Assembly (NCBI GenBank): GCA_025782345.1
Contig: JALGZG010000107.1
Location: forward strand, 1 to 34,694
From: a bacterium
Lineage (GTDB): Bacteria; Joyebacterota; Joyebacteria; Joyebacterales; Joyebacteraceae
DNA length: 34,694 nt
Reading direction: 5' to 3'
Shown here: positions 4,201 through 11,286 of the stretch, in pieces
How positions within the stretch are numbered: position 1 is the first letter of the stretch
Layout: every line of letters begins with the position of its first letter
Made by a program: the position numbers and the translations under genes
The notes under the pieces: model-generated
The model's input: the letters and a program-made list of their open reading frames with translations, nothing else
Told to the model about the DNA's origin: nothing
Database searches by the model: none

Positions 4201-4865
4201 AGATCGTCCGTGTAGCGCCGGTGCCGCCGCGCCTGCGCCAACTGCCGCTTGAGCGACCGCACCTTCTTCTCGACCTCGCTGATGATGTCAGACACGCGCT
4301 GCATGTCCGTCTCTGTCGCAGTGAGCTTGTTCAGCGCCGACCGCTTCCGGACCTTGTACTTCATGATCCCGGCGGCCTCCTCGAACATGAAGCGGCGGTG
4401 CCCACTGGAATCCGAGAGGATCGAGTCAACCATCTTGCGTTCGATCAGCGAGTACGTCCGCGTGCCGACACCCGTGTCAAGGAACAGGTCCTGAATGTCC
4501 CTGAGGCGACAAGGGGTCTTGTTGAGAAGGTACTCGCTCTCTCCCGACCTGAAGACGCGGCGCCCGATGACGACCTCCGCGTAGTCGATAGGAAGGTAAC
4601 CGGCGGAGTTGTCGATGGTCAGCGCCACCTCGGCCATGCCGAGTCGGCGTCGCTGCTTGGTGCCGTTGAAGATGACGTCGGCCATGCTGGCTCCGCGCAG
4701 CTCCGAAGGGCTCTGCTCACCCAGGACCCACCGAATGGCGTCAGCGACGTTGGTCTTCCCGCACCCGTTGGGTCCCACGACGCACGTCATGCCGGAACCA
4801 AACTCGAGACCCAGCTTGTGCGCGAAGGATTTGAACCCGAAGACGTCCAGCTTCTTGAGGTACAC
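1254..4865 (-). CDS. smc: Chromosome segregation protein SMC
   Basis: 1203 aa; N-terminal MYLKKLDVFGFKSFAHK and VVGPNGCGKTNVADAIRWVLGEQS, long coiled coils, hinge, C-terminal LLSGGERALTAIALLFAI and FCILDEVDAPLDDANV. Confidence 0.98.
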   Translation of the reverse strand: MYLKKLDVFGFKSFAHKLGLEFGSGMTCVVGPNGCGKTNVADAIRWVLGEQSPSELRGASMADVIFNGTKQRRRLGMAEVALTIDNSAGYLPIDYAEVVIGRRVFRSGESEYLLNKTPCRLRDIQDLFLDTGVGTRTYSLIERKMVDSILSDSSGHRRFMFEEAAGIMKYKVRKRSALNKLTATETDMQRVSDIISEVEKKVRSLKRQLAQARRHRRYTDDLKELEIALGRREYAEWQTRKGQSTGRISGLRGTMGECDGVLSRSERDGMGVRTERHDKEEALASLEIEIGELDARVRSLADGLLVGSERRSASERRVAELDTELTDIRADLALALSRTARLEDEIKGAADRTDERDSELASVTEGLSEIEKEHRRFRDLLDGQKQTRLAGLESSAGLKGELESYRTRLDGLIEEHVTLETGLGEGRRALAEKEELILTALEAEKSLRGAAHDAAVAHKQGTACLDGAREGLLGAREHKTKLEGELDSAEHKKQLLSEIRDGYGGFQEGVRSLLTDDADSVAGLVGTVADVITIDQGMEGAIETALAGAVQYVVTRDVESARNAMGHLSRGALGKATFIPVSELAGIHVERPPDTVCSAAGVVGPASDFVSCDGSLGTLSEFLLEGVVIVRDLDTALGLRGREDAEHLAFVTPEGDMATAAGVLSGGRPGNEEAGLLRRAERLEAAQRDVADLTRRLAEARRAEETAEGELATASAAAEGAEAAAERAEAELWEAKRQVTELELGKTNLADSVARLGANRDALGVRMESTRRDVVVLADRLSHLSRGEDELGEQVGELQRKFKLAERERARAGEEEKQSEIAAAAARSELAQLKAEHAQLGETVRVAKSAIEKKSEEREHHIRTVGELDTRNGADGEVLSGLNEEKHALERDRDAMRNDVRQLRVQIEKLDEDTRSSRDTRDRAQVELHEIELKDTELRSRFESLRERLQEEYSADVEQLGDLAVEEDAPPFDAPKAKEEIERLRARLRAMGPVNLLALDEYDEESKRLEFLTGQFEDLERSKESLKAAIDQINNTAREMFLETFELVRKNFVDMFQRLFEGGDADLKLTNPDDPLDSTIEIVASPRQKKLGRLSLLSGGERALTAIALLFAIYLVKPSPFCILDEVDAPLDDANVQRFVRVLKDFSDRTQFIIITHNKATMKEADRLYGITMEESGVSKVVSVSLDHAREEVVSEEAVLEAV

Positions 4866-4881
4866 CGCCCCTCCTTACTCG

Positions 4882-6591
4882 CTACTCGTTGTCAGCGGCG
4901 CGTTCTATCCACGCGCCTTCATACCCGAGAGCCTTAATCGTTTCAAGATCTTCGCGGGCCGCCGACAGTATCGGATACCCGCCGGACACGACGACCCGGA
5001 ACCACATCCCTCTGTTCTCCACCTCCTTCGCCACGACCTCCGCACCGACACCGCGTTGGATCAGCCGTTCGGCCTCGAAGACGGCCGCTCCTTCGTGACG
5101 GTGCGAGCTGATCATGATCCGATAGCGACCGCCGGGTCCGCTGATAGCGGTGCCCCCATCGGAGCTCTCGCGCACCGCGCGTACGTCTGACTCGTCGAGG
5201 TCAGCCGAGCCGATCTCCTCGCCCGCCGCCTCCCGCTCTCCCTCAGAAGCGATCTCCCCGGTCGATGGGTCTTCCCCACCTGCGGCCCTGTCTTCGCCGT
5301 CCGTGATGAGCTCCGTCGTTCCCACCTCGCCCGCCTCGCCACGAGGTGCCGAGCTGTCTTCCACCGGCTCCCAGTCCCCACCTTCTACCACACGCTCGTG
5401 TTCTCTCCGGCTGAGGTTGTCGAGCCACAAGTTGGACCTGCGCTCTCCGTCGACGAACCACCACAGCATCACCGCGATGGCGACGATCACGAGCATGGCC
5501 ACCGTGGCTGCCAGGTGGTTCGGAGTCATCCGTCGGCGACGCACCGAGGCTCCGAGCACGACCGGCTTGTGCTTTGCCCCACCGGTGTCGTCGCGACGCG
5601 CCTCGATCTCGGGGCGCCCACGTTCCGCACGCCCCGTCCTCGATCCCTGCGGCGCCGCTTCCAACCTCGCGGACACAACTAGACCTTCGCGCATCGGGAC
5701 CACGAGTGGGGGACGCTCCGCCAGCTCACCAGGCTCTTCGACATCCGCCAGCTCGCCAGGCTGTTCGGCATCCGCTACCTCACCAGCCTCTTCGACATCC
5801 GCCAGCTCGCCAGGCTCTTCGACATCCGCCACCTCGCCAGGCTCTTCCACATCCGCCGCCTCGTCGGGCTCTTCGACATCCGCCACCTCGCCAGGCTCTT
5901 CGGCATCCGCCGCGTCGCTCTGCTCGAGGACCAGGATCCCTGTCGTCCTCACATCACCGGTGCACGAGGCCAGCGACACTATGTCGGCTCCGGTCCCGGC
6001 GACGCAGACGACGGCGTCGAGAGCACCCAGTGTCTTCGTCACGTGGACCGGAGGGACAAGCACGAGCACCAGCGCATCCTCCGCGAGTGTCCTGAGCATC
6101 TTCGAGAATGCGTCCGACTCGAAGACGTTGTCGACCGAGAGCGGATGCGAACCTGCCGTGACCACGCTGACGCCCGGCGCGAGAGTGCGCCTGACAATGG
6201 CCGCGCGTGACACCCCGAACAGCACCGCGTCCACCAATCCCTCATCCCGGTCTTCGTCGAGCGCCTTTCCGAGGACGGGACTCTCCACGGTCGCGTCAAC
6301 AAGGACCACCGTTCTTCCTCTGTCACCGAGCCAAGCCGCGGCGTCCGCCGCGAGCCCGGCGGCTTCCGACATGTCCGTTCCGGAGATCCCGACCACACCC
6401 TTCACTACATCCAGTAACCGCTCGAGATCCGGCATCCAGCCAGCCAGCGCATCCCCGATCACCGGGCGGACCAGCACCGGGTCCCCGACCCGACCGGTCC
6501 GCTCCAGAGCCACACCGCCGGCGACCACGCCGGACTCGCGCAGACGCTCGAGTTCCTCACTGGGCGTTCCGGACAAGGCTCTGAACTCCAC
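4882..6591 (-). CDS. SPOR-domain membrane protein with N-terminal degenerate BY-kinase/MinD-like domain and acidic 9-aa repeats
   Basis: The provided ORF extends to 6759, but a GTG start at 6589-6591 (VEFRALSGTPSEELERL) sits just after the selA stop (6594). N-terminal VVGISGTDMSEAAGLAADAAAWLGDRGRTVVLVDATVESPVLGKAL resembles a P-loop/CpsD fold without Walker A GKT/S. One TM segment (LAATVAMLVIVAIAVMLWWFV). C-terminal YRIMISSHRHEGAAVFEAERLIQRGVGAEVV...WFRVVVSGGYP looks like SPOR. Confidence 0.8.
   Translation of the reverse strand: MEFRALSGTPSEELERLRESGVVAGGVALERTGRVGDPVLVRPVIGDALAGWMPDLERLLDVVKGVVGISGTDMSEAAGLAADAAAWLGDRGRTVVLVDATVESPVLGKALDEDRDEGLVDAVLFGVSRAAIVRRTLAPGVSVVTAGSHPLSVDNVFESDAFSKMLRTLAEDALVLVLVPPVHVTKTLGALDAVVCVAGTGADIVSLASCTGDVRTTGILVLEQSDAADAEEPGEVADVEEPDEAADVEEPGEVADVEEPGELADVEEAGEVADAEQPGELADVEEPGELAERPPLVVPMREGLVVSARLEAAPQGSRTGRAERGRPEIEARRDDTGGAKHKPVVLGASVRRRRMTPNHLAATVAMLVIVAIAVMLWWFVDGERRSNLWLDNLSRREHERVVEGGDWEPVEDSSAPRGEAGEVGTTELITDGEDRAAGGEDPSTGEIASEGEREAAGEEIGSADLDESDVRAVRESSDGGTAISGPGGRYRIMISSHRHEGAAVFEAERLIQRGVGAEVVAKEVENRGMWFRVVVSGGYPILSAAREDLETIKALGYEGAWIERAADNE
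5725..5913 (-). repeat. In-frame 27-bp tandem repeat, about 7 copies, encoding [AVL]AD[VA]E[EQ][PA][GD]E
   Basis: Protein stretch AADAEEPGE VADVEEPDE AADVEEPGE VADVEEPGE LADVEEAGE VADAEQPGE LADVEEPGE; DNA unit approximately ctcgccaggctcttcgacatccgccac on the plus strand. Confidence 0.95.
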
Positions 6592-6593
6592 GG

Positions 6594-8006
6594 CTATTCC
6601 TCCTCGAATGCACAGAGCAAGGCGGCGACCACCGCGGTGTCCTGGCTCTCGTAGACCGTTCTCAGGTCGACGATGACGCGGTCTTCGTGAGTCCGGGCCA
6701 CGACGGCAGGAGACGCTGTGAGCATCGTCGATGTAACCGATCCCGCCGAAACGCCGCATCGCGGTTCTATCTGGACTCCCCTGCTGGGTATGACCCTCTC
6801 CGGGGCGGCGCCTCCGCCCACCAGTCCTTCCAGTTCCACCACCGACACCCGCGCGCGGTCGCCCAGCGAGGACGCCAGAGACCGGGCCATCTCGTCGGAC
6901 CTTCGTCCGAGTGAGTCGAGCGGTGCCATGATGGCCGATAGCACCGGGACCGCGGTCTCAGCCTCGCCCCTGAGATAGCTTCTGAGAGTCGCCGACAGCG
7001 CGGCAAGGGTCAGCTTCCCGGGGCGAAGGGCCCGCATCAGCGGATTGGCTCTCATGCGGGAGATGGCGCTCTCCGTCCCCACGGCGATCCCCGCCTGCGG
7101 GCCGCCGAGTATCTTGTCACCGCTGAACGTCGACACGGTCACTCCCGCCGAGACACTCTCCCTCACTGTCATCTCGCCCGAGAGTCCCAGCTTCGCGGGG
7201 TCGGCGAGGATGCCGCTTCCGAGGTCGTGGATGACGGGAATGCCGAAGTGCTCGCCGAGCGACGCCAGTTCGTTGAGAGAGACGCGTTCGACGAATCCCG
7301 AGATCGAGTAGTTGCTCCAGTGAGCCGACAGAAGCGCGCCCGTGCTGCTTCTGATAGCATCCCGGAAGTCCGACAGGTGTGTGCGGTTCGTTGTTCCCAC
7401 CTCGACCATGCGAGAGCCGCTACGCTCGAAGACGTCCGGGAGTCTGAACGAGCCGCCTATCTCAATGAGTTCACCGCGCGAAACGATGACCTCACGGCCC
7501 GGAGCAAGTGTGTTCAGAACCAGGAGGACGGCGGCCGCGTTGTTGTTGACCACAAGGGCGTCCTCGGCCCCCGTCAGCTCGCAGATCGCGTCCCTCACCA
7601 GGTAGTCACGCTTGCCACGAGTGCCCCTGATGAGATCGTACTCGAGGTTCGAGTAGCCCCGGGCGATCTCCGCGATGGATGCCACCGCCTCCGCGGACAG
7701 CGGCGCCCTTCCCAGATTCGTGTGAACCACGATTCCGGTCGCGTTGATCACCGGGACCAGCCCGCGCGCGGGCGAACGGACGATCTCCGCCTCGACTTCA
7801 GCCAGGATCCCGGCACGCACGCTCTCATCAGACTCACCGTGGCGGCATTCTCCTGCAATCATCGCCCCGCGCTCTGCTTCGAGGATCTCCCTGACAAGAC
7901 GGACCGCGATCGGCCTCGGCTGTATCGCGCCTAAGCCCCTCTCATCGAGATGAGCCAGCACGGCATCGACGGAGGGAATTGCGCTCAGATTACTCTTGTC
8001 GGTCAT
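6594..8006 (-). CDS. selA: L-seryl-tRNA(Sec) selenium transferase SelA
   Basis: 470 aa; NATGIVVHTNLGRAPLS, NNNAAAVLLVLNTLA, HWSNYSISGF, TFSGDKILGGPQAGI, characteristic of SelA. Confidence 0.95.
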   Translation of the reverse strand: MTDKSNLSAIPSVDAVLAHLDERGLGAIQPRPIAVRLVREILEAERGAMIAGECRHGESDESVRAGILAEVEAEIVRSPARGLVPVINATGIVVHTNLGRAPLSAEAVASIAEIARGYSNLEYDLIRGTRGKRDYLVRDAICELTGAEDALVVNNNAAAVLLVLNTLAPGREVIVSRGELIEIGGSFRLPDVFERSGSRMVEVGTTNRTHLSDFRDAIRSSTGALLSAHWSNYSISGFVERVSLNELASLGEHFGIPVIHDLGSGILADPAKLGLSGEMTVRESVSAGVTVSTFSGDKILGGPQAGIAVGTESAISRMRANPLMRALRPGKLTLAALSATLRSYLRGEAETAVPVLSAIMAPLDSLGRRSDEMARSLASSLGDRARVSVVELEGLVGGGAAPERVIPSRGVQIEPRCGVSAGSVTSTMLTASPAVVARTHEDRVIVDLRTVYESQDTAVVAALLCAFEEE

Positions 8007-8373
8007 GAATCAGCGCGCGCGCCTTCGTGGGCCCGCGCATCCTTCCCGGCAGGTCTGGGGCGCGAATCCCCGCGCCTACGGATGGCCGCTCCCGGACACG
8101 GCCAGAGACAGTCTACGATGCCGTCAGAATATCTGTCCGTGAACAGGTGGTCAAGCGGTTTCGCCCCCGTAAGTTGCGGAGAGCCCACGCGTAGCGCTCA
8201 GCAGACCCCGCTTCCTGGCAGGGCACCCTGCAAGAGCGTGAGTGCATCATGACTCGCGGCCCTTGTTCCCCCCTGGCGGGTAGGCGCATCGGTAGGCGTG
8301 CAGGCGCTGCGCCCGAGCCCTTGAGCGCCCCAATCCGCCGCCCTTGTGCCAGCTACAGCTCAGGCGGCAGCGG

Positions 8374-8390
8374 CTGGCACGTCAATTGCA
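8374..8390 (+). promoter_or_regulatory. Sigma-54 (RpoN) -24/-12 promoter element
   Basis: CTGGCACGTCAATTGCA: TGGCAC (8375-8380), 5-nt spacer, TTGCA (8386-8390). Matches consensus TGGCAC-N5-TTGC[AT] with correct GG/GC spacing. Confidence 0.75.
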
Positions 8391-8466
8391 CGAACAACGG
8401 CCCTGTGGGACCCCAGAGAGCACGTTCAGGGGACAATGAGTCCACGAGCCCGGCTGCAGCAAAGGA

Positions 8467-8554
8467 GGGTAAACAACGACCGTTGTTACACCCGTGGCAG
8501 ATCTGGTGCCCGGCGATCGCGACGAAAGCGAGGGGAAAGGCACTGCGTCCCCTC
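8467..8554 (+). other. Structured 5' leader of the secreted-protein gene (several stem-loops)
   Basis: GGGT-A-AACAAC-GACC-GTTGTT-AC-ACCC (8467-8493), TCGC-gacgaaa-GCGA (8517-8531) and GAGGGG...CCCCTC (8530-8554), between the putative TSS (about 8400) and the ATG at 8589. The last two stems overlap by two nt and could be alternatives. Confidence 0.4.
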
Positions 8555-8588
8555 AAGACCCAGGGCTCCAACATGGAGTTTTGCGAGA

Positions 8589-9805
8589 TGCCTAAGAGAA
8601 CGCTTTGCGTGCTGGTAGTTGCTGCCGCTATGTTCGCGTTTGCAGCGACAGCGACGGCCAAGACAACGGTTGCCGAGTACACCGGCACGGTCGACCTGCC
8701 GGATTCGCGCAGCCCCATTGTGCTGTTCTTCGACGACATGGAGAGCGGCGTCAACGGCTGGACGACCGTCGACAACACTGCCGGCGCGCCGACCCACTTC
8801 CACCTGGACACGTACATGGCCTACGAAGGCACGTACTCCTGGTGGTGCGGCACGTTCGACTATGACACCGACGGTGGCTACGGCAACGGCTGGGATGACA
8901 GGCTGATCATCCCGACGACCGATCTGACCGGTGCCGCGTATCCGATCCTGACCTACGCGTTCCGTCACGATTCGGAGATCGGCTACGATTACACGTACGT
9001 GCAGGCCGAGAGCATGGGTGTCTTCGTGGACCTGAACCGTGGCTACGACGGTTCGGCCCCGTGGACCGACATCGGTCTCTACGGCTTCATCCTCCAGACC
9101 TACGACAATCCGCTCAACGCGCGTTTCCGGTTCCTGTCGGACGGCGCCTGGTCGGATGCGGACGGCCTGTATCTGTCCGTCGGTGGCGCTTTCATGTGCG
9201 ACATCGTCAAGGTCTTTGACTACTTCGGCGGCTACGTGTACTTCTTCGACGACGGTGAGAGCGGCGGCCTCTGCGTGCCCGGCGTCCCGTCTTCGGCCGG
9301 CGACTACTGGCACATCATCGACAGGTGTTGCCCGGCGTACAGCGACCCGCACAGCTGGTGGTGCGGCAGCGACGCCGACACCAGCCTGATACCTCCGAAC
9401 CTCAACAACTCGCTGATCTCTCCCGCCGTCAACATCATCGGCGCCGGGACCTGCACGCTCCGGATGTTGGTCCACGCGGAAGTGCCCACGGGCCTCGACG
9501 ACTACTGGAACGAGGAGGTCAGTGTAGACGGCGGCGCCACTTGGCACCTGACCGGCGCGTGGTGGGGCGACTTCGGCCAGTGCGACGGTTGGGGCACGAG
9601 CGGTATCGCTGGAGTCGACATCAGTCCGTTCCTGCCTGGAACGGCGTTCCAGTTCAAGCTGACGTTCTACTCGAGCGACGACGGGTGCGGTCCGGGTGCG
9701 GCCGGCGGCGCCGGCATCATGCTCGACGACACTTGGCTTGAGGACTGGACCGGTTCCGCGGTCGAGGAGAAGAGCTGGGGCAGCATCAAGGCCATGTACA
9801 GGTAG
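8589..9805 (+). CDS. Secreted two-repeat protein (MAM/choice-of-anchor-like beta-sandwich domains) with a short conserved-looking C-terminus
   Basis: Start chosen at MPKRTLCVLVVAAAMFAFAATATAKTT (signal peptide). Two repeat units share FFDD(M/G)ESG...SWWCG...(I)I/LIP/SP. Ends EEKSWGSIKAMYR. Only convincing plus-strand gene. Confidence 0.85.
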
Positions 9806-9833
9806 AGTTCCGGAAACAGTACTTCTTGAGTAA

Positions 9834-9868
9834 GACGAGGGGTGGCGTTCGACGCCGCCCCTCGTTTC
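9834..9868 (+). terminator. Intrinsic terminator of the secreted-protein gene
   Basis: ACGAGGGGTGGCG-TTCGA-CGCCGCCCCTCGT followed by TTC; strong GC-rich stem 29 nt after the stop, T-run short. Confidence 0.75.
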
Positions 9869-9957
9869 ACGGTACGGGGGACATCGTGCCGGGCTAAGGC
9901 GGGAGGACGGCGGCAGTGCACACTGCTGGAGGCAGGGCGGCAGTTTCTGGGTGGACG

Positions 9958-11286
9958 CTAGAGGTATCGCAGCAGGAGGTACGCCGTTGTGATGAGCAGG
10001 CAGATGGCGGTCACGGGAACGCCTGTTCTCGCATAGGTCGCAAACGAGAGCGGTTCCCGCTCCTTGGACGACAGCCCGACGACCGCCATGTTCGCCGCCG
10101 CGCCGACGACGGTCGCGTTCCCACCCAGGCAGGCTCCGGCGGCGAGCGCCCACCAGAAAGCCAGCGCGACGCCCGGGTCGGACGCGCCCAGGTGGTTCAC
10201 GAGGATCTGGACCACCGGTATGAGAACGGTGACGGTCGGAACCGCGGAAAGCAGAGAGGCAGTTATGGCGGTTCCCCAGAGAATCATGACTATCAGGACG
10301 GCCGGCGTCTCGGACACCGCGAGGACTCCGCGCGCCGCCAAATCGACCACTCCCACGGCCTCAAGGGCGCCCACCAGAACGAAGAGACCGATGAAGAAGA
10401 AGAGCACCCCCCACTCCACCTCCGCAAGCAGTTCCTCCGGGTTGATGCGCGTGACCACGAGCAAGAGAGCGGCTCCCGCGAGTGCCACCGTGGCCGGTTC
10501 GAGCCCCAACTCGTGATGGAACAGGAATCCGACGAGCACGAGCCCGAGTACCGCGAGTGCGCGGCGCAGGAGCCCCGGATCTCTTATCGCTTGTGCCGCG
10601 TCCATCGATTCCAGCGCCTTGCTCTTGGCTTCGTCCGGCGAGGCGAAGAAGTCACGCTGCCCGGCCAGCCTCAGGTAGAGCAGGCTCACGCCAAGGCAGA
10701 TCAGCGCAAGAGGTCCGAGATTAACAAGGAAGTCCATGAAGGAGAGATGTCCTGACATCCCAGGAACGAGGGCGCGACTACCGACCAGTATGTTTGGGGG
10801 ATCGCCTATCAGAGTCGCCATTCCGCCGATGTTGGCCATGATTATCAACATGACCAGAAATGGCATCACGTTCTTCCCCAAGAGGTCAGAGACGAGGTAG
10901 ATGACGGGGACGATCATGAGGACGGTAGTGACGTTGTCGATGAAGGCCGAACTCACCGCCGTGATCGCGGCGAAGCCCGCGAATATCAGGAAGACCCTTC
11001 CCTTCCCACGTTGCGCTACTCTGAGGGCGAGGAACTTGAAGACCCCCGTGCGCGTGAGGACGGCCACGATGAGCATCATGCCGATCAAGAGGCCCAGCGT
11101 GTTGAAGTCTATGAACCCGACCGCCTCATCCTGGGATAGCGATAGCCCCGGCAGGAGCAGAACCAGAAGAGCTCCAGCCAGGGCGATCGTCGTTCGATGA
11201 AGCCGCTCGGTGACGATGAAGTAGTACGTGGCAACGAAGACCGTCGTCACCGCGACGAGTGGGAACATCTCTTGAAGTCCTCTCAC
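9958..11286 (-). CDS. ArsB/NhaD superfamily (SLC13-like) permease
   Basis: 442 aa, multiple TM segments; FIDFNTLGLLIGMMLIVAVLTRTGVF, AFIDNVTTVLMIVPV, ANIGGMATLIGDPPNILVGS typical of the ion transporter superfamily. Confidence 0.88.
   Translation of the reverse strand: MRGLQEMFPLVAVTTVFVATYYFIVTERLHRTTIALAGALLVLLLPGLSLSQDEAVGFIDFNTLGLLIGMMLIVAVLTRTGVFKFLALRVAQRGKGRVFLIFAGFAAITAVSSAFIDNVTTVLMIVPVIYLVSDLLGKNVMPFLVMLIIMANIGGMATLIGDPPNILVGSRALVPGMSGHLSFMDFLVNLGPLALICLGVSLLYLRLAGQRDFFASPDEAKSKALESMDAAQAIRDPGLLRRALAVLGLVLVGFLFHHELGLEPATVALAGAALLLVVTRINPEELLAEVEWGVLFFFIGLFVLVGALEAVGVVDLAARGVLAVSETPAVLIVMILWGTAITASLLSAVPTVTVLIPVVQILVNHLGASDPGVALAFWWALAAGACLGGNATVVGAAANMAVVGLSSKEREPLSFATYARTGVPVTAICLLITTAYLLLRYL

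Follow-up and report, generated by a model that had tools for sequence, protein, structure and literature searches.

The reading that we favour, and consider reasonably probable from the sequence comparisons, is that the window (the whole 34,694-nt stretch analysed here, contig C304 of genome G000, a metagenome bin of 2.4 Mb in 400 contigs) carries a σ54-dependent gene for a surface or released adhesin-like protein, and that the last 15 residues of this protein form a tag that serves as a sorting signal read by the type IX secretion system (T9SS). Close relatives of the gene are found in metagenome bins labelled Candidatus Eisenbacteria. The features of the locus are the following, with coordinates in the window:

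6594–8006, minus strand: selA (L-seryl-tRNA selenium transferase), the divergent upstream neighbour and a synteny marker
8375–8390, plus strand: predicted σ54 (-24/-12) promoter element TGGCAC-N5-TTGCA, with 11/11 consensus bases and conserved in orthologs
8401–8587, plus strand: predicted 5' leader of ~187 nt, with the start at ~8401 placed from σ54 geometry
8588–9805, plus strand: gene for an exported protein of 405 aa, with orthologs 81–83% identical over the full length and conserved synteny
8588–8659, plus strand: signal peptide MPKRTLCVLVVAAAMFAFAATATA, cleavage site placed by eye
8717–9748, plus strand: two tandem jelly-roll β-sandwich domains, residues ~44–215 and ~216–387, as modelled by AlphaFold2 (pLDDT 79)
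9758–9802, plus strand: C-terminal tag AVEEKSWGSIKAMYR-COOH, the last 15 residues
9833–9867, plus strand: terminator-like hairpin with a 16-bp stem and a 3-nt loop (z = -2.9)
9958–11286, minus strand: CitMHS/ArsB-type permease, the convergent downstream neighbour and a synteny marker

The gene is real on the plus strand and all neighbours tested (SMC, the SPOR protein, SelA, the CitMHS/ArsB permease, a SurA-like PPIase, YchF and H+-PPase) are on the minus strand, as the first-pass annotation had described. To call it a self-contained cassette, as that annotation does, goes too far: the gene lies in a neighbourhood with the order selA - gene - citMHS - surA that is conserved in the orthologous loci, where the contig of L041 covers the downstream side only, but no partner gene belongs to it. 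Translation starts at the ATG at 8588, located 197 bp past the σ54 box, because an upstream ATG at 8573, also considered as start, corresponds in ortholog L038 to an ATG that runs into a stop codon. The terminator assigned to the gene stands in part: there is a strong hairpin after the stop codon, but its T-tract is weak (CGTTTC) and it is absent from the list of a stricter terminator scan, so it is terminator-like and not of the textbook kind. Elsewhere in the window an FMN riboswitch (Rfam RF00050, 109 bits) is located at 173–292 on the minus strand, and the start of the SPOR-domain gene (4882–6759, minus) overlaps the end of selA (6594–8006) by at most 166 nt as ORFs (6594–6759). The SPOR protein evolves far more rapidly than the proteins around it, with 46–75% against 84–95% identity between the same genomes.

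The product was predicted to be secreted, and its 405 residues do begin with a clear signal peptide; in the AlphaFold2 model the N-terminus forms a helix at residues 3–20 with a disordered stretch after it. No Pfam or NCBIfam family was matched by the window protein, and Foldseek returned partial matches of low TM-score to tandem CBM22, MAM, reelin and InhA2 domains. The model makes a surface adhesin or glycan binder about an even prospect for its function.

The promoter element (TGGCACGTCAATTGCA) has zero mismatches on the plus strand, with the GG and GC at their fixed spacing, and is the sole perfect match in the window, which agrees with the consensus-perfect site reported before. The strict motif is not enriched in the 2.4-Mb genome, where 3 perfect matches compare with 2 for the reversed pattern and 6 one-mismatch matches with 5. 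Judged by these figures the raw counts are not beyond chance, and significance comes from conservation: the box is significant because 6/6 syntenic orthologs, the window included and representing three genera, preserve all 11 consensus bases. Within the genus the spacer and the CGAA following the -12 element are invariant too, and the invariant core runs over 20 nt at 8375–8394 (TGGCACGTCAATTGCACGAA), which is the longest invariant run in the aligned intergenic region of the four same-genus orthologs, a length reached by 14 of 20000 column shuffles of this four-way alignment. The two further genera have TGGCACGTCAATTGCA in G003 and TGGCACGTCACTTGCA in L041, and in genus g3 the spacer is altered (GTCAC vs GTCAA) and the flanks differ with the 11 consensus bases intact. 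The ortholog comparison shows the -24/-12 box to be under strong selection and to be the regulatory element of the window gene, and almost certainly it is a σ54 promoter preceding a secreted-protein gene.

The first-pass annotation had claimed σ54 control of a secreted surface protein, with the presence of rpoN and the conservation of the motif in orthologous loci as tests, and this claim has held up: the genome encodes rpoN (E 1.1e-58) and seven ORFs matching the σ54 activator domain with E < 1e-26, and the box is kept in the six syntenic orthologs of three genera. Three weaker activator-domain matches are probably other AAA proteins. The claim also included a dedicated enhancer-binding protein, for which there are the seven strong candidates in the genome, but the word dedicated is unsupported, as no such protein lies in the tested stretch of the window and none of the candidates could be assigned to the promoter. 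A search for the motif TGGCAY-N5-TTGCW in G003, a better assembled relative of which 794 kb were sampled for motif and tag counts, gave five matches, and 4/5 are intergenic, correctly oriented and 74–250 bp ahead of a gene; with the motif reversed there was one match and none between genes. The genes behind these four boxes encode the window protein's ortholog, another secreted protein with the tag, a secreted protein whose C-terminus is T9SS-domain-like by eye, and a GAF histidine kinase with a REC-GGDEF response regulator after it (G003:C1:194557–197875), and the expectation that the same motif precedes other secreted genes is therefore borne out in G003. The same family of GAF kinase has a perfect box in G000 (contig C68; 48% identity to the G003 kinase), and σ54 may feed c-di-GMP signalling via the kinase/diguanylate cyclase operon. 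A one-mismatch, σ54-like intergenic box of G000, TTGGCATGTGCCTTGCA (G000:C214, L077:1502–1517), precedes an MshEN/T2SSE ATPase of the PilB/GspE type and comes after a response regulator in which an HD-GYP-like domain was recognised by eye.

These observations resemble what is known of σ54 as a controller of the bacterial exterior (Francke et al. 2011, PMC3162934). The -24/-12 element, rpoN and the activators are shared with the σ54 promoters of surface genes described there, as are the targets, namely surface proteins, a T4P/T2S-type ATPase and signalling genes, and there is no difference in kind. The regulation of the window gene is ordinary in kind and follows this known theme. A 2025 survey of σ54 regulons (PMC12316311) has no mention of Eisenbacteria or type IX secretion.

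An inverted repeat overlapping the -24 box had also been proposed to occlude it. The 8-bp repeat GTGCCAGC/GCTGGCAC exists, yet the same 2 kb has 16 inverted repeats with a length of 8 bp or more, its first arm is broken in ortholog L039 (GTGCTCGT), and the arm was not seen in the examined upstream DNA of two other genera; being not conserved, it was ruled out as a regulatory hairpin or operator, and the proposed occlusion is unsupported. The leader is conserved within the genus only, and by BLAST no other leader similarity extends beyond the genus. It matches no Rfam family at the gathering or a relaxed threshold and was on that ground rejected as a known riboswitch, and RNAalifold gave a weak result with few compensatory pairs on the four sequences available; an RNA element in the leader is possible. 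The leader at 8401–8587 also carries an anti-Shine-Dalgarno-like AAAGGAGG that is not followed by a start codon.

More unusual than the rest of the gene is its C-terminal tag, which goes unmentioned in the first-pass annotation. Its consensus is PVE[ED]x[ST]WGxIKA[LM][YF]R, and it was searched in DNA as W-G-x-I-K-x-x-[YF]-R-stop. This pattern has 24 matches in the own genome, with 0 for the reversed pattern, and is found in 20/20 genomes of the Eisenbacteria group in 9–53 copies each, the reversed control giving 0 in all. Among 64 distinct C-termini the flanks outside the search pattern are conserved as well (P 66%, V 75%, E 78%, S/T 93%), and because PVE and [ST] are absent from the pattern their conservation constitutes independent support; R, which is part of the pattern, is the last residue in 64/64. 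A looser protein motif was searched in six frames in the 794 kb of G003 and in the window, and of its 15 matches 14 abut a stop codon, one lies within a residue of a stop and none is internal. The full-length tagged proteins start with signal peptides as judged by hydropathy, and 15 of them, compared without signal peptide and tag, form about nine unrelated groups, the passengers including β-helix, lamin-tail domain, DUF7901, jelly-roll and unnamed ones. Ten tagged proteins scanned against NCBIfam gave repeats only and no T9SS domain. The tag is absent from Pfam and NCBIfam, and its literal strings were not found in the literature searched, a scope outside which preprints and subscription papers lie. 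From the unrelated passengers and the strict C-terminal position it follows that the tag, as seen in these sequences, is a portable C-terminal signal and not the inherited end of a domain, and it is very probable that it acts after Sec export as a localisation signal. The idea of σ54 as master of all tagged genes was rejected, most of them having no box: it is found before one of about 15 tagged genes in G000 and two of about 12 in G003. As the box is absent from most tagged genes, promoter and tag are two independent features that meet at the window gene.

The T9SS was considered as reader of the tag on the grounds of an exchange with type A domains, the presence of SprA, and a porD gene beside a tagged family in a second phylum. 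Homologs of the window passenger carry the tag in L038, L039, L040, L041, L042, L043, L048, L049, L056 and L059, and a tail of the FPNPFNP...KMxLLK type A kind in its place in L044, L045, L050 and L058, with the type A domain above the curated cut-off in L044 and L050. SprA is found in 19/20 genomes, 17 of them above the curated cut-off, and in 0/14 control genomes; in the own genome it is encoded on contig C26 and scores above the curated cut-off. Canonical T9SS tails are present in 20/20 genomes, with 63 matches in the own genome. A third kind of tail, SPY[RSA][RK]F-stop, replaces the WG tag or the T9SS domain in homologs of the protein from another genus (L052:8001–9260; L053:2990–4258 and 4420–5691; L055:8001–9260 and 9422–10693), and this might possibly be another C-terminal signal. 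SprA of the full-length type occurs near single-copy outside Bacteroidota (G000:C26 and 18 other genomes). In the literature searched no paper combines Eisenbacteria with type IX secretion, and within it SprA in Eisenbacteria is apparently unreported.

In the second phylum, that of the LCP-89 bin, the tag motif is present in 38/39 genomes and exactly once in 37; the second match in G041 reads WGFLKRFFQ and is probably due to chance. All 20/20 loci read encode one family of small proteins with a signal peptide and an FnIII-like domain. The ORF directly upstream of the FnIII-tag gene is DUF4835/PorD above the Pfam cut-off in L132, L195 and L201, where the NCBIfam PorD model matches below its own cut-off; L207 completes the four loci whose upstream ORF was scanned, and DUF4835 was not matched there. 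In P. gingivalis, PorD is a bona fide component of the T9SS (PMC8754138). In the part of the Eisenbacteria genome that was searched no porD was found, beside tagged genes or elsewhere. The FnIII-like protein of the LCP-89 phylum (L132, L190–L208) is near single-copy and phylum-wide and ends with TWGSIKAMFR, and is a candidate for an undescribed T9SS component or cargo.

A short T9SS signal is plausible, since the terminal 22 residues of such a domain are enough for the secretion of GFP (PMC10202324; also PMC3120885). We give about equal weight to the tag being read by the T9SS and to its not being so. The wider proposal is put forward more tentatively, at slightly below even confidence: the tag would be an undescribed minimal (~15-residue) class of T9SS signal outside Bacteroidota, ancestral as the FnIII tail beside porD in the second phylum and expanded to tens of cargo proteins in Eisenbacteria. 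If it is linked to the T9SS, the tag would constitute a new signal class of a known system.

Short conserved C-terminal signatures on many unrelated exported proteins are known from PEP-CTERM, LPXTG and GlyGly-CTERM, and in this the tag resembles these tripartite signals. They need a transmembrane helix and a basic tail past the motif, however, whereas the tag constitutes the last residues, with the motif preceding the stop in 14/15 six-frame matches and no helix and basic tail following it. The T9SS type A CTD (TIGR04183 / PF18962) and the short CTDs of Prevotella intermedia, which are of 40–51 residues (PMC11969387), are likewise found at the extreme C-terminus of Sec-exported proteins. As with the type A CTD, the tag is portable between unrelated passengers and has hydrophobic residues and a basic residue at its end, and homologous passengers bear either of the two. 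The tag differs in having 15 residues against 40–82 and no CTD motifs; it shows a near-invariant W-G-x-I-K...R and is missed by every T9SS model used, with no match to the NCBIfam T9SS domain in P0001, L038, L043 or two FnIII-tag proteins, and the ~72-residue Ig-like type A domain (TIGR04183) with its motifs A–E is lacking in the tagged proteins scanned. In contrast to the β-sandwich of the type A CTD, the tag is predicted to be disordered or a short helix, as in the AlphaFold2 model of the window protein. T9SS types B (TIGR04131 / PF13585) and C (PMC10202324) are alternative C-terminal classes for the same translocon, but of about 100 residues or more, and they give no match to the tag; the type B region is insufficient on its own (PMC10202324).

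In the proposed mechanism one of the enhancer-binding proteins of the genome would be activated, and the σ54 RNA polymerase would start near 8401. The window gene would belong to a small exterior regulon together with the GAF histidine kinase, accompanied in G003 by the diguanylate cyclase response regulator, the PilB/GspE-type ATPase and other surface proteins. After Sec export the portable tag would direct the protein through or onto the outer membrane, and, less surely, the machine reading it would be the T9SS.

It is very unlikely that the σ54-like motif is due to chance and the conserved block something else, for instance a regulator site for the divergent region between selA and the gene. 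The lack of enrichment of strict counts in the whole genome would suit this, as would a conservation within the genus, of spacer and CGAA, that exceeds the needs of σ54, but what g2 and g3 preserve is precisely the 11 consensus bases, although spacer and flanks change in g3, and the same motif stands upstream of other G003 genes in the right orientation and at the right distance. For the tag, a role in proteolysis or quality control, as a C-terminal degron for a periplasmic tail-specific protease, is highly improbable. It would account for the strictly C-terminal position and the end in hydrophobic residues and Arg, but hardly for a tag that is found on tens of secreted proteins of abundant type with unrelated bodies and is interchanged with a secretion domain on homologous passengers, and near-invariant 15-mers on secreted proteins are not known as degrons.

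A possible but rather doubtful reading is that the tag does act in sorting or anchoring from the C-terminus, but with another machine than the T9SS; it might be an amphipathic helix with W, I, L/M and Y/F on one face and a basic end that binds the outer membrane on its inner side, or it might serve another translocon or a processing enzyme. A short helix is predicted for the tag in both structure models, the tag has zero sequence likeness to known T9SS signals or their motifs (no NCBIfam match), and since canonical T9SS domains occur alongside it in all of the genomes, it could serve a different machine. The exchange with the type A domain on homologous passengers points instead to the T9SS, as does the porD neighbourhood in the second phylum, and a simple amphipathic anchor would not require W, G, I, K and R to be nearly invariant.

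The σ54 part contributes a conserved exterior regulon from a phylum that has been little studied. The known T9SS signals are folded domains of 40–100 residues. If the proposed reading of the tag is true, a natural replacement of the whole domain by 15 residues would be a minimal natural recognition element, and signal reading by PorV/SprA would be directly testable with a peptide. It would also make the secreted proteomes of uncultured phyla of the FCB group annotatable, with tens of proteins per genome that current models leave unflagged.
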